Positions 9,084 through 48,759 of a stretch of DNA of 64,000 bases are shown one piece after another. Below the pieces are notes generated by a model, which saw only the letters and a program-made list of their open reading frames with translations, did not search any database and was not told where the DNA came from. This DNA comes from Armatimonas rosea (GTDB lineage: Bacteria; Armatimonadota; Armatimonadia; Armatimonadales; Armatimonadaceae), in contig NZ_JACHGW010000001.1 of assembly GCF_014202505.1 (NCBI RefSeq), forward strand, positions 1,054,001-1,118,000. The letters run 5' to 3'. Each line of letters begins with the position of its first letter. The first letter of the stretch is position 1. A program made the translations under genes and the position numbers.

Positions 9084-9089
9084 AGCCCG

Positions 9090-9095
9090 TACAAT
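9090..9095 (+). promoter_or_regulatory. -10 element before the synthetase gene
   Basis: TACAAT lies 9 nt before the ATG at 9105 and just after the SET-domain stop codon. It could give the synthetase its own nearly leaderless transcript. Confidence 0.45.
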
Positions 9096-9104
9096 GGGGA
9101 CAGT

Positions 9105-12100
9105 ATGACGACGCCTACCTGGCTCCCTGAGTTCTTCGAGCACGCCGTTCGCACCTGGCCCGATGCCCTTGCCATCGACATTCCCCCCGGCCCGACCCGG
9201 CCGGAGCGGACGACCCTCACCTACGCTGCGCTGGCCGAGCAGGTCGAGGCACTTCGTACGGCGATTCAGGACCATGTGGTGGGCGAGTGCATTGTCGCCA
9301 TCCTGCTGGGCCGCGATACCGAGCGCCTCTATGTCGCCCAGCTCGCGGTCTTGAGCGCGGGCGCGGCCTATCTCTGTATCGACCCCTCATTCCCCGACGA
9401 GCAAGTGCGTGAGATTCTCCGCGACTCCGCCGCCGTTCTGCTCCTCACCGACGCGGCCGGCCAAGCCCGCGCCGCGCGCGGGGAGTTTCCCGTGCGCGTG
9501 TTTAACCTCTCCGGAGGTAACCTCTCCCTCCCCCAGCCCCTCCCTCCCCCGGACGCTCATTCTTCGCTGGGGAAGAGAGGGGAGCCAAATTCGCTTTCCC
9601 CTTTCCCAGTGAGGTACGAACGCCCGGGAGAGGGGCTAGGGGAGAGGTTACTCCCGGAGAGGTTAGCCTACGTCATCTACACCTCGGGGACGACCGGGAA
9701 GCCCAAGGGGGTTCTGATCGAGCACCGGAGTATCGTCAGCCTGGTGCAGTCCGATCTTATGGAGTTCGGGCTCGGGCCGGGCGACCGCGTGGCCCAGGGA
9801 TCGTCGCCCGCCTATGACTCGTCGGTGGAGGAGCTCTGGCTCGCACTCGCCTCAGGGGCGACGGTCGTGGCGATGGACGACGACGCGGCGCGGCTGGGGC
9901 CGGACTTGGTGGGCTGGCTGCAGCGCGAGCGCATCACCGTGCTCTGTCCGCCGCCCACGCTTCTGCGAACCACCGGCTGCGAGAGTCCTGCCGAGCTCCT
10001 CCCCGCGCTCAAGCTGCTCTATGTCGGCGGCGAGGCACTCCCCCGCGATATCGCCGATACATGGGCCAAAGGGCGGCGGCTGGTCAATGGCTACGGCCCC
10101 ACGGAGTGCACGGTCACAGCCCTGCGCGGCGACGTTCGAGTCGGGGAGACGATCACGATTGGGACGCCCGTGCCGGGGCTAGAGTCCTGGGTGCTGGATA
10201 GTGCGCTGGACCTTGTCCCCGATGGCAGTGCGGGCGAGCTCTGTCTGGGAGGAGTCGGGCTGGCGCGGGGCTACCACCAGCGCCCCGAGCTCACTGCGGA
10301 GAAGTTTATCGACCACCCGACTCTGGGACGGCTCTACCGTACGGGCGATCTCGTCCACCGCGACCCGGCGAGCGGCGCGTTTCACTACCACGGGCGAATG
10401 GACTCGCAAGTGAAGCTCCGTGGCTACCGGATCGAGCTGGAGGCGATCGAGACCTGCCTGGCCGCCTGCCCCGGCGTCCGCGAGGCCGCCTGCTGTGTCC
10501 AAGGCAACGACCTCGCCGCGTTTATTGTCCCCGAGGAGGTGAGCGCGCCTCCCACCTTCGATGCGCTCCGTGCGGCCCTCCGTGAAGCCCTTCCCAGCTA
10601 CATGGTGCCCGCGCTCTTTGGAGTCTTGAGGGAGCTCCCGCGCAGTGTCGGCGGAAAGCTCAAGCGCGAGGGCCTGCCCCTGCTGAGCCGGGGGGAGCGA
10701 CCCATCGGGGAGCGGGAGTTTGTCGCACCCCGGACTGCGCGGGAGCGCGCACTGGCCGCTGCGGTTGCCCAGACACTGGCCCTGACCGGCGAGGTCTCGG
10801 TCACCGACGATTTTTTCCAGGAGCTGGGGGGCACCTCGCTTCAGGCGGCGCAGCTGATCTCCCGCCTCCGCACCGACCCCGCCACTGCCTCAGTCACGGT
10901 CCGCGAGCTCTACGAGGCTAGGACGGTCGCCGCGCTCGCCCTGCGCGTGACTCCGCCGCTGCCGCCCCAGCAGCAGCGCCCGCGACAGGCTCCCCTAGAC
11001 ACACGCGGCGAGCTACGGACCGGGGTCTTACAGGGGCTCTGGCTCTTGCTGGAGCTGACGGTGGCATCGTTTGCCGCCTACGAGGTTTTCTACAGCCTCC
11101 TGCCCGCACTCCTCGCACGCCTGGGAGTTGCGCTCCTGTTCCTGCTCACGCCACTCCTGCTCCTGGGGGGGCTCGTGCTCTACACGCCGCTTGCCGTCCT
11201 CGTCGCGGTGGCGGTCAAGCGCCTGCTGATCGGGAAGTACACCCCGCGCCGCGAGCCGGTCTGGGGGGCGTTCTACCTTCGGCACTGGATCGTGGTCCAG
11301 ACCGCGCGGCTGATTCCCTGGCCCGTGCTGGGGGGGACGGAGTTTCAGTGCATGGTGCTCCGGGCACTCGGGGCGCGGATTGGGCAGCGCGTGCACCTCC
11401 ACCGCGGGGTGGACCTGACCCAAGGTGGCTGGGACCTGCTGACCCTCGCCGATGATGTCACGGTAGGCCAGGACGCGGCCCTGCGTCTGGTCGAGCTGGA
11501 GAGCCGGGAGCTGGTGCTCGGCCCGATCACGCTGGGGGAGGGCGCGACGCTGGAGGTGCGTGCCGGAGTCGCGCCGGGCGGAGCTCTGGAGCCGGGTGCC
11601 TCTCTGACCGCGCTCTCGTCGCTGCCCGCTGGCGCGACCGTGCCCGCGGGCGAGCGCTGGGACGGCATCCCGGCACGTCCCACGGGAGCGACACCGCCTG
11701 CTCCCGTGCCCACACAACACCCGCCCACGCTCTCGCCGCTTGCCTACAGTGTCGCGCTCCTGCTCGCACAGAGCGCCCTCTGGTCGGTGCTGGCCCTGCC
11801 GCTGGAGCTCCTTAGCCTCGGGGCGCTGGTCTGGGTAAAGGCCTCGGACGCGCTCCCGCTCTACACCGCACTTCTCACTCTCTCGCTCCCTCTCACTCTG
11901 GCACTGGAGGCCCTCGCCGTGCGCGCCTTGGGCCGGGTCTCCCAGGGCGTCCTCCCGCGCTGGAGCCTGGCCTACCTGCGGGTCTGGCTCAAGGCGGGGC
12001 TCGTGGATACGGCGGGGGAGTGGCTCAGTGGCGCGCTCTTCTGGCCGCTCTGGCTCCGTGCCGCGGGGATGCGGGTCGGGGCGGGCTGCGAGATCAGCAC

Positions 12101-13055
12101 GATTATCGACGTCGTCCCAGAGCTCATTGAGATCGGCCCGGAGACCTTCTTCGCCGATGGCATCTACCTCGGTGGTCCGCGGGTCCACCGTGGCACGGTG
12201 ACCCTGGCGAGCGTGCAGATCGGCACCAATGTCTTTCTGGGAAACCACGTGGTGGTCGCGGGCGGCCAGCGACTCCCCGACAATCTCCTCCTTGGTGTTT
12301 GCACGGTCGCCGACGATCAGCTTATGCACGAGGGGAGCTCCTGGTTTGGCCACCCGCCCTTTGCGCTTCCCCACCGCGAGATAGTGGCGTGCGACCGGAG
12401 CCTCACCCACAGTCCCTCCGCGATCCGCTATGTCAATCGTGTTTTCTGGGAGACCCTGCGTTTCGCCCTGCCCGTAGTCCCCGCCCTCGTGCTCTACGAG
12501 AGCCTCTCTGCGATGGCGACGGGCGGGCTTGCGATCCCTCTGGCGGCACTGGCGGGCACGAGCGCCCTCTGCTTGCTGATCCTCGCGCTCAAGTGGCTCT
12601 TGCTGGGCCGCGCGCGCCCCGGTACCCACCCGCTCTGGTCGTGCTGGTGTAGCCGCTGGGACTTTCTCTATGTCGCCTGGGGAGTCTACGCCCGTGGGAC
12701 ACTCACGGCTCTGGAGGGCACGCCGCTCCTCACTCTCTACCTGCGTGCCATGGGGCTGAAGCTCGGAAAAGGGGTTGTCCTAGGCAGTGGCTTCTCTCAG
12801 GTGGTAGACCCCGACATGATCGAGCTCGGCGACGGTGCCACGGTGACGGCGGCGTTCCAAGCCCACACGTTCGAGGACCGTGTCTTAAAGCTTGATAAAG
12901 TCCGAATCGGGGCCAGTGCGACTGTCGGGAGCAACACCGTCCCCCTCTACGGCGCCACAACAGGGGAGGGAGCCTATGTCGCGCCGCATAGTGTGATCAT
13001 GAAGGACGAGCACCTACTCCCGCACCGGCACTACGAAGGAGCCCCCACGCGGTGA
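9105..13055 (+). CDS. Pls/PosA-family non-ribosomal peptide synthetase
   Basis: The 1316 residues comprise an adenylation domain (about 1-530; YIYTSGTTGKPKG-type loop, YDSSVEELW, GYGPTE and YRTGD motifs) and a carrier domain with LGGTSL near residue 575. A long C-terminal part has several membrane helices and left-handed beta-helix-like repeats (about 640-1316). There is no classical condensation or thioesterase domain. This order matches the epsilon-poly-lysine synthetase type (Pls/PosA), which activates one basic amino acid and polymerises it at the membrane. The substrate cannot be read reliably here. A palindromic repeat adds about 54 residues (134-187) just before the ATP-binding loop. 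The next gene starts inside its stop codon. Confidence 0.88.
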   Translation: MTTPTWLPEFFEHAVRTWPDALAIDIPPGPTRPERTTLTYAALAEQVEALRTAIQDHVVGECIVAILLGRDTERLYVAQLAVLSAGAAYLCIDPSFPDEQVREILRDSAAVLLLTDAAGQARAARGEFPVRVFNLSGGNLSLPQPLPPPDAHSSLGKRGEPNSLSPFPVRYERPGEGLGERLLPERLAYVIYTSGTTGKPKGVLIEHRSIVSLVQSDLMEFGLGPGDRVAQGSSPAYDSSVEELWLALASGATVVAMDDDAARLGPDLVGWLQRERITVLCPPPTLLRTTGCESPAELLPALKLLYVGGEALPRDIADTWAKGRRLVNGYGPTECTVTALRGDVRVGETITIGTPVPGLESWVLDSALDLVPDGSAGELCLGGVGLARGYHQRPELTAEKFIDHPTLGRLYRTGDLVHRDPASGAFHYHGRMDSQVKLRGYRIELEAIETCLAACPGVREAACCVQGNDLAAFIVPEEVSAPPTFDALRAALREALPSYMVPALFGVLRELPRSVGGKLKREGLPLLSRGERPIGEREFVAPRTARERALAAAVAQTLALTGEVSVTDDFFQELGGTSLQAAQLISRLRTDPATASVTVRELYEARTVAALALRVTPPLPPQQQRPRQAPLDTRGELRTGVLQGLWLLLELTVASFAAYEVFYSLLPALLARLGVALLFLLTPLLLLGGLVLYTPLAVLVAVAVKRLLIGKYTPRREPVWGAFYLRHWIVVQTARLIPWPVLGGTEFQCMVLRALGARIGQRVHLHRGVDLTQGGWDLLTLADDVTVGQDAALRLVELESRELVLGPITLGEGATLEVRAGVAPGGALEPGASLTALSSLPAGATVPAGERWDGIPARPTGATPPAPVPTQHPPTLSPLAYSVALLLAQSALWSVLALPLELLSLGALVWVKASDALPLYTALLTLSLPLTLALEALAVRALGRVSQGVLPRWSLAYLRVWLKAGLVDTAGEWLSGALFWPLWLRAAGMRVGAGCEISTIIDVVPELIEIGPETFFADGIYLGGPRVHRGTVTLASVQIGTNVFLGNHVVVAGGQRLPDNLLLGVCTVADDQLMHEGSSWFGHPPFALPHREIVACDRSLTHSPSAIRYVNRVFWETLRFALPVVPALVLYESLSAMATGGLAIPLAALAGTSALCLLILALKWLLLGRARPGTHPLWSCWCSRWDFLYVAWGVYARGTLTALEGTPLLTLYLRAMGLKLGKGVVLGSGFSQVVDPDMIELGDGATVTAAFQAHTFEDRVLKLDKVRIGASATVGSNTVPLYGATTGEGAYVAPHSVIMKDEHLLPHRHYEGAPTR
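9504..9664. repeat. In-frame palindromic repeat inside the adenylation domain (family B, copy 1)
   Basis: The 161-bp element is an imperfect inverted repeat: AACCTCTCC(GGAGG)TAACCTCTCCC at one end pairs with GGGGAGAGGTTACTCCCGGAGAGGTT at the other, and the similarity continues through arms of about 75 nt. It stays open in the frame of the synthetase and encodes a Pro/Gly/Leu-rich segment. The same element recurs at 13055-13251 in the next gene. Confidence 0.85.
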
Positions 13056-46736: not shown

Positions 46737-47651
46737 TTGCTGGCCAATCTCTCTTCCATGACCACCGCGAACCCCTCTTCTGTCTTAAGCCCTGCGCAGG
46801 TGCAGGGCTTTCTTGATAATGGTTATCTTGTTGTCAAGGGCTGCCTCGATCCCGAGCTGGCCCGGCGCTGGGTGGACGATGGCTTTGCCCGGCTTGGCTA
46901 CGACCCGGGCGAGCCCAGCACCTGGAAAAAAGACATTGTCTGGATGGACCACCACCACAAGCTCCCCGTGCGAGAGCTCGCGCCCAAGGCATGGGCCGCG
47001 CTCTGTGAGGTAATTGGGGGCGAGGAGCGGCTGGAGACCCAGGTGATGCAGATCGAGTCGGCGCATTTTTCGACCATCAACTCTTGGCTCTGGTCCGATG
47101 CCTTTGTCGCCAACTTCCACCGTGGTGCCGACCAGCCCTGGCAGCCTCCGAGCGCTGAGGTGGGCGGCTGGCACAAAGACGGCAGCTACTTCCGGCACTT
47201 TCTCGATAGCCGCGAGCAGGCGCTCCTCACCATTGTCCTCTGGTCCGATATGCGGCACCAAGGCGGCGGGACGTTTATCGCCCCGGACTCCGTGCGTGTG
47301 GTCGCTAAGTTCCTCGCGGAGCACCCCGAGGGAGTCGCGCCGGGAGACTTTAAGTTCCAGGAGCTCATTGCCCAGTGCCAGCGCTTCGAGGAGCTGACCG
47401 GCGAGGTGGGGGACTTCGTGATCCTGCACCCGTTTATGCTCCATGCCTCGTCGCAGAACACCCTCCGACGCCCGCGCTTTATGACCAACCCGCCCGTGGT
47501 GCTCAAAGAGCCCATGAACCTCAACCGTGAGAACCCCGAGGACTTCTCCCTGCTAGAGCGTGCGACCCTGCACTACCTCGGTAAGGAGCGCCTCGATTTT
47601 GTGCCCACGGCTCCTCGTGAGTCGTACTGGTGGCCCGCAACGACTGCCTAG
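46737..47651 (+). CDS. Phytanoyl-CoA dioxygenase (PhyH) family oxygenase
   Basis: The 304-residue protein starts at TTG (46737), where GGAGGAGAGGGGG lies upstream. The ATG at 46758 (297 residues) is the alternative. It has an HxD metal pair in GWHKDGSYF and the distal His in HPFMLHASSQN, with a following Arg, the iron/2-oxoglutarate site of the PhyH family. Substrate unknown. Neighbours give no pathway clue. Confidence 0.82.
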   Translation: MLANLSSMTTANPSSVLSPAQVQGFLDNGYLVVKGCLDPELARRWVDDGFARLGYDPGEPSTWKKDIVWMDHHHKLPVRELAPKAWAALCEVIGGEERLETQVMQIESAHFSTINSWLWSDAFVANFHRGADQPWQPPSAEVGGWHKDGSYFRHFLDSREQALLTIVLWSDMRHQGGGTFIAPDSVRVVAKFLAEHPEGVAPGDFKFQELIAQCQRFEELTGEVGDFVILHPFMLHASSQNTLRRPRFMTNPPVVLKEPMNLNRENPEDFSLLERATLHYLGKERLDFVPTAPRESYWWPATTA

Positions 47652-47697: not shown

Positions 47698-48759
47698 ATG
47701 AATGCGAACCTTGACCCTCAGATAGAGTTGCTCCGCCGCGACTTTGCGGCGGCTCGCCCTCAGGAAACCGACCTTGAGATCTACCGCCTCGACTGGACCG
47801 TCCCTCTGGCAACGGCACAAAAGCGTGCCCTTCAAGAGAGACGCCCCCTGCTGGTTGTCGCGGTGCGCAATGCCCACGGGGATACCTTTACGGGGCACTG
47901 CTGATCGAACTCCAACTACACGAGAGGGGGCGCTCTCTCGGACGCGGCGGTCGTCGCGCTTTTACAGCCTTTTGTCCTCACCACCTGGGCAGGTAGCTCA
48001 CCGAGCGAAGCGCCTGCTGGGATTCGTGACGCTCTCTTTGCCGCGGATAGCCCTGGCGAGACCACCTATTTTGTGATCGCCGATGCTACCGGGCGTATCC
48101 AGGGCGCGATTCCGGGCGGCACGATGCTCAATCGCCAGCCCGGAGCTGCCACGGGCTATGTCCGAGATCAGCTTCAGCGCGCCATTGCCTACCTGAAGCT
48201 CCCCCCGCACACCGCTCCGCTTCGCCCCGTTCGACTCCCGAGTCTCCCCCCAAGCAAAACTCCCTTGGCGGTGCCTGCAGGTGTTCGACTCTTCATCCGC
48301 CTGCCGGAGCACCCACAGCCGGCCTACCGTGTCCCTATCGTTCAGCCTATCGCCCTCACCAGCGCCGAGTGGGCTACGCTCGCACACCCCAGCGCCCCAC
48401 GCACGGTCGCCGCGGAGCTGCTGCGTGTCTGGCTGGAGCAGGTCTTTCCGGTGGGGATGAAGGAGATGGTGGGGGCTAATATCCACAACGACAGGGTGGG
48501 CGGCTCTCTCACCCTCCGACCCGCTGGGAGTGATACAAAGTACCGCTATGCGATTCTCTCTGGCACGGTGGCTCTCACGCTTGCGGGGCGCACGCAGGTG
48601 GAGCATGGCGGTACGCTCAAGGCTGTCCTCGCCTATCCTAAGACCGGCTCTGGTATTGTCGCGCTGAAAGGGATTCTCAACGGCACCTACCCCGAGACCG
48701 ACTCCTTCCAGACCCGAGTCACCCAACACCCCTACGTGGTCGTGCTTGAGTCGCTCTAG
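47698..48759 (+). CDS. Thioredoxin-like protein with in-frame UGA at codon 69 (candidate selenoprotein or nonsense mutation)
   Basis: Reading on through one TGA at 47902-47904, the frame stays open for 353 codons from ATG 47698. Before the TGA it encodes a thioredoxin-like start (WTVPLATAQKRALQERRPLLVVAV); after it comes a matching continuation (LSDAAVVALLQPFV, then TTYFVIADATGRIQG). The codon pair at the stop is TGC-TGA, so a Cys-Sec motif is possible, but a TGG-to-TGA mutation (Cys-Trp) would look the same. A 6-bp hairpin (47921-47940) follows 16 nt later. TAGAGT lies 8 nt before the start. No Sec machinery gene is in the window. Confidence 0.5.
47921..47940 (+). promoter_or_regulatory. Candidate SECIS-like hairpin
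   Basis: CGAGAG pairs with CTCTCG around an 8-nt loop GGGGCGCT, beginning 16 nt after the in-frame TGA. Bacterial SECIS elements are short hairpins just after the UGA, so position fits; the loop lacks an obvious GU and the fit is modest. Confidence 0.3.

Follow-up and report, generated by a model that had tools for sequence, protein, structure and literature searches.

A predicted thioredoxin-like selenoprotein family with a conserved in-frame UGA in Armatimonadota and Planctomycetota

The gene at positions 47698-48759 of the window (the whole 64,000-nucleotide stretch of Armatimonas rosea DNA that was analysed) very probably encodes a selenoprotein of a family that is absent from the curated libraries searched, with SelB and a hairpin directing the insertion of selenocysteine (Sec) at residue 69. 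The Sec reading is strongly supported because the genome carries the sel genes, the UGA is conserved among relatives, the hairpin keeps its register, and remote relatives feature either Sec or Cys at the corresponding position. The features discussed below are as follows:

47698..48759, plus strand: predicted selenoprotein gene for a 353-residue product that contains a single Sec and consists of a thioredoxin (Trx)-like domain followed by a C-terminal beta domain; frame open except for one TGA, with homology on both sides of it
47767..48207, plus strand: Trx-fold domain, residues 24-170; AlphaFold2 model, structural matches and hhalign
47899..47901, plus strand: Cys68 (TGC in the translation), which adjoins Sec69 and is the only Cys of the window protein
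47902..47904, plus strand: predicted Sec-UGA codon (Sec69); TGA at the identical codon in every family member that spans the site
47921..47940, plus strand: bacterial SECIS-like hairpin CGAGAGGG-GGCG-CUCUCUCG, 8-bp stem with the GGCG loop at 47929-47932; folding energy, conserved register and compensatory changes
48280..48756, plus strand: C-terminal beta-rich domain, residues 195-353; strands predicted in both models, no convincing structural match

The frame comprises 354 codons including the stop, starts with ATG and ends with TAG, and its sole internal stop is the TGA at codon 69, directly after a TGC, exactly as the sequence-only reading had described. When the bases of the gene were shuffled, the 284 codons that follow the TGA remained open in only 8 of 20,000 trials. 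GC content by codon position is 0.72/0.44/0.69 upstream of the TGA versus 0.68/0.53/0.71 downstream, a pattern that continues across the TGA; together with homology to L027 (see below) that flanks the TGA, this bears out the earlier claim of a protein-like pattern on both sides. The earliest in-frame start listed 3' of the TGA in the window is a GTG at 48073, so the portion beyond the TGA shows no clear sign of being a gene of its own, as had also been claimed. A true stop or regulated termination at the UGA, with a 68-residue main product and a downstream part that is translated separately, is very improbable. Two relatives (L034 and L036) do have an ATG three codons past the UGA, but the window offers no start until 48073, and a separate downstream gene was rejected there for this reason; in addition, such a stop would split the Trx fold right at the active site, and the Sec machinery of the genome is complete.

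When 291 Armatimonadota genomes were searched at the protein level, a full-length relative emerged in Chthonomonas sp. UBA2362 (L027/L036; G172), which is 30% identical over 350 residues (E 5e-48) and has its UGA aligned with that of the window. The UGA is likewise aligned in a relative from a Planctomycetia MAG (L034), found by a GTDB contig scan, and a profile of these three sequences retrieved 13 further Planctomycetota genes that span the site, all with UGA. UGA therefore occupies the identical codon in 16 of 16 genes from Armatimonadota and Planctomycetota (the window gene and 15 others), which share the motif GH[CT]-U-[AS], while the damaged copy L050 reads HAU. No full-length Cys or Trp form was found among the 291 Armatimonadota and 392 Planctomycetota genomes, including in a search with a 15-member profile.

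These data bear directly on the other alternative of the sequence-only reading, in which a recent TGG-to-TGA point mutation or a sequencing error broke an ordinary gene. One substitution would suffice for this, and the window copy is divergent, forming a long branch in the tree (1.83). The alignment of homologues at codon 69, which had been proposed as a check, nevertheless gave UGA in all 15 relatives spanning the site, from two phyla, and neither Trp nor Cys in any of them; the hairpin is conserved as well. As all 16 genes retain the UGA even though the window protein is only ~28-36% identical to its relatives, and no Cys or Trp relative was found, we regard a recent mutation or error as excluded and rejected this alternative.

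The versions of the gene in L034 (5938-7044, Planctomycetia MAG) and L036 (5947-7032, Chthonomonas MAG) are 59% identical, and the Armatimonadota members are scattered in the tree rather than forming one group, which suggests transfer between the phyla. No match was found in plasmid and viral collections. In L050 (the G422 copy), homology is lost 5' of the Sec motif at about 1500-1520 while the UGA and everything downstream are kept, likely reflecting a frameshift or assembly error. A weak match in L028 (G137) lies in a frame without an internal stop and covers only query residues 172-229; it was treated as chance. Conservation of the gene neighbourhood was not observed; the only recurring neighbours were antisense shadows of the gene and genes common to closely related pairs of loci (for example L063/L072 and L065/L068). 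In the window itself, an ORF on the same strand (46737-47651), judged by eye to be of the phytanoyl-CoA dioxygenase type, ends 46 bases 5' of the start of the selenoprotein gene. Judged by eye from its translation, a large ORF at 9084-13052 begins like an NRPS adenylation domain.

Outside the family, the residue aligned to Sec69 in more distant Trx-like relatives is Sec or Cys. Cys is found in L054, L055, L087 and L091 and in the CxxC proteins L035, L086 and L088, but in no family member. Both Armatimonadota and Planctomycetota also have remoter Trx-like genes in which a single UGA stands at the corresponding site (L075, L076, L077, L078, L056, L060, L058, L079, L080, L082, L085, L089, L090 and L002); their motifs include GRCUGG, QLCUTN, GHCUQNG, CTUNNG and RCULGG, and many have a similar hairpin.

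The hairpin begins 16 nt past the TGA, with 24 nt between the TGA and the loop, a location that the sequence-only reading had considered suitable for a bacterial SECIS element. Published limits for such elements are a loop of 3-9 nt with a G in its first two positions, a stem of 4-16 bp, a loop that lies 16-37 nt after the UGA, and an MFE of -7.5 or lower (PMC13188914). The window hairpin lies within all of these (4-nt loop GGCG, 8 bp, 24 nt, -13.2 kcal/mol), and this, along with the conserved register described next, supports the earlier proposal. Taken alone, the hairpin is not unusual under dinucleotide shuffling (z -0.72; 41 of 200 shuffles fold as well), a test that is uninformative on hairpin significance in GC-rich DNA; against synonymous recoding of its peptide, P is 0.004 for pairs and 0.006 for energy.

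Among the positions scanned, ungapped from the UGA, the register that pairs best across the 16 genes joins +18..+24 with +29..+35 around a four-base loop. In this register, 95 of 112 pairs are formed, as against 64.4 +/- 4.3 under a synonymous-codon null in which each peptide is randomly recoded (maximum 81 in 5000); the genes are related, so this comparison does not yield an exact probability. With four remoter UGA genes added, 85.7% of cells pair, compared with 53-72% when the 3' side is slid by 1-3 bases. Compensatory changes are found at +19/+34 (A-U in 8 genes, C-G in 7) and at +23/+30 (G-C in 11, C-G in 4), while neither "further pair types" nor "pairs with a change on both sides" exceeded their own shuffles. 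The stem is not formed in the shared register in L042, L043 and L052. In the Cys-bearing remote relatives L054, L087 and L091 nothing comparable to the hairpin is found, the folding energies being -8.8 (another structure), -4.7 and -0.2 kcal/mol, respectively.

A search of the full genome for selA, selB, selC and selD, another check that had been proposed, found all four above curated cut-offs and spread over four contigs. The tRNA-Sec (selC) scores 61.6 bits (cut-off 47) and has a UCA anticodon in the anticodon loop CUUCAAA, while SelB, SelA and SelD score 356.6, 506.7 and 372.3 bits, respectively. The SelD gene (L030, 1396-2514, minus strand) contains its own in-frame UGA within CAG-U-ASKIG, so that SelD is a predicted selenoprotein in its own right; this suggests that the genome makes use of Sec decoding. 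With the sel genes, the UGA in relatives and the conserved hairpin, the selenocysteine alternative of the sequence-only reading is thus well supported. SelB co-occurrence in Planctomycetota adds nothing to this, as 10 of the 14 genomes that carry the gene have SelB, and so do 14 of the 20 that lack it; three of the four carriers that lack SelB have a tRNA-Sec of at least 67 bits.

An AlphaFold2 model computed from three sequences has a moderate pLDDT of 67.6, lowest at the Sec loop. The top structural matches to its Trx domain are DsbD C-terminal (gamma) domains, AGR2/AGR3 and other Trx_7-type proteins at Z 8-9; with this moderate model as the query, VIA-align matched 3f9u_B with Z 9.1 and an rmsd of 4.0 over 123 aligned residues. 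In an hhalign comparison with the Bacteroidales CxxC protein L035 (probability 96%), Sec69 falls on the first of the two Cys residues in FTGHTCSNC, and the profile and structural matches together bear out the earlier description of the protein as thioredoxin-like. A sequence search of the PDB gave nothing meaningful. For the C-terminal domain, the best fold match (Z 7.3) was to outer-membrane barrels at 5% identity and was treated as no match, which does not make the fold of this domain new. A hydrophobic signal-like stretch opens most relatives but is missing from the window protein, which may therefore be cytoplasmic.

In the proposed mechanism, SelB loaded with Sec-tRNA(Sec) would bind to the hairpin that closely follows the UGA; rather than stopping, the ribosome would then place Sec at residue 69 and complete the 353-residue protein. 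Sec69 would take the position that the nucleophilic Cys, the first of the two, has in a thioredoxin CxxC motif. The family lacks CxxC itself, with UxxS in the window protein and mostly UxxA or UxxM in the relatives, such that the second Cys is replaced by Ser or mostly by Ala or Met. Resolution of oxidized Sec69 could fall to Cys68 in the proteins that have it, or else to an external thiol. The pairing of Sec with an adjacent Cys, which had been put forward from the window alone, holds for the window protein and most Planctomycetota members but is not essential, since L036 and L034 have Thr instead of Cys68; what is conserved is the unit GH[CT]U. As Sec69 occupies the nucleophile position and the second Cys is missing, the window protein is probably a one-selenol redox enzyme, either a thiol-disulfide oxidoreductase or a peroxidase-like reductase. 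The conserved UGA and hairpin, the complete Sec machinery and, from a moderate model, the Trx-like fold are computational findings. The insertion of Sec is inferred from this strong comparative evidence, and the redox chemistry and any substrate are inference beyond it.

Sec incorporation would also be compatible with a non-redox selenoprotein, one in which Sec69 together with Cys68 serves as a binding site for a metal or for a selenium/sulfur cargo while the partner docks on the beta domain. The missing second Cys of CxxC, the presence of Cys68 as the only other thiol, and a beta domain that has no convincing structural match would fit such a role; we consider it unlikely given that Sec occupies the nucleophilic site of a Trx fold.

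The family appears to be Sec-only. Tentatively, and with somewhat less than even confidence, the gene could represent one branch of a larger, unnamed Trx-like radiation of Armatimonadota and Planctomycetota whose members have come to require Sec and have abandoned the CxxC pair, many of them using an adjoining Cys-Sec redox unit. This is an additional predicted selenoprotein family, one whose genes standard annotation cuts in two at the UGA and for which the curated libraries used have no entry. Eight of the remoter UGA-containing Trx-like genes have no NCBIfam match, which suggests that the selenoproteomes of both phyla are under-counted.

Of the 15 members compared with NCBIfam, not one has a match at E 0.1. 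In Pfam, the window protein has no hit and so falls short of the gathering score, and PF13899 (Thioredoxin_7) is hit weakly by 3 of 15 members (best E 0.0055). Table 1 of a 2026 inventory of 119 families and subfamilies (PMC13188914) has no entry with the GH[CT]U motif, and a literature text search found neither GHCU nor GHTU among the papers listed; the families of Haft and Tolstoy 2025 were compared via NCBIfam and this table. We therefore call this a putative new family of bacterial selenoproteins, themselves a known kind, where new is relative to the curated libraries searched. The VPGUxxT family thioredoxin-like (seleno)protein (NF041383) similarly combines a Trx-like domain with Sec and weakly matches the remote relative L002 (E 2.8e-6), but its VPGUxxT motif differs from GH[CT]U and it matches neither the window protein nor 14 relatives. 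The Trx7/PDZ domain-containing (seleno)protein (NF041199) also features a Trx_7-like domain and Sec, whereas its listed motif is CxxU and it has, by name, a PDZ domain; the window protein carries U without CxxU and a beta domain, and does not match this model. In comparison with Thioredoxin_7 (PF13899), the DsbD C-terminal domain and AGR2, the window protein falls below the Pfam cut-off, carries an extra C-terminal domain, and has Sec in place of the CxxC Cys with loss of the second Cys, but shares with them the predicted fold and the position of the active-site residue.
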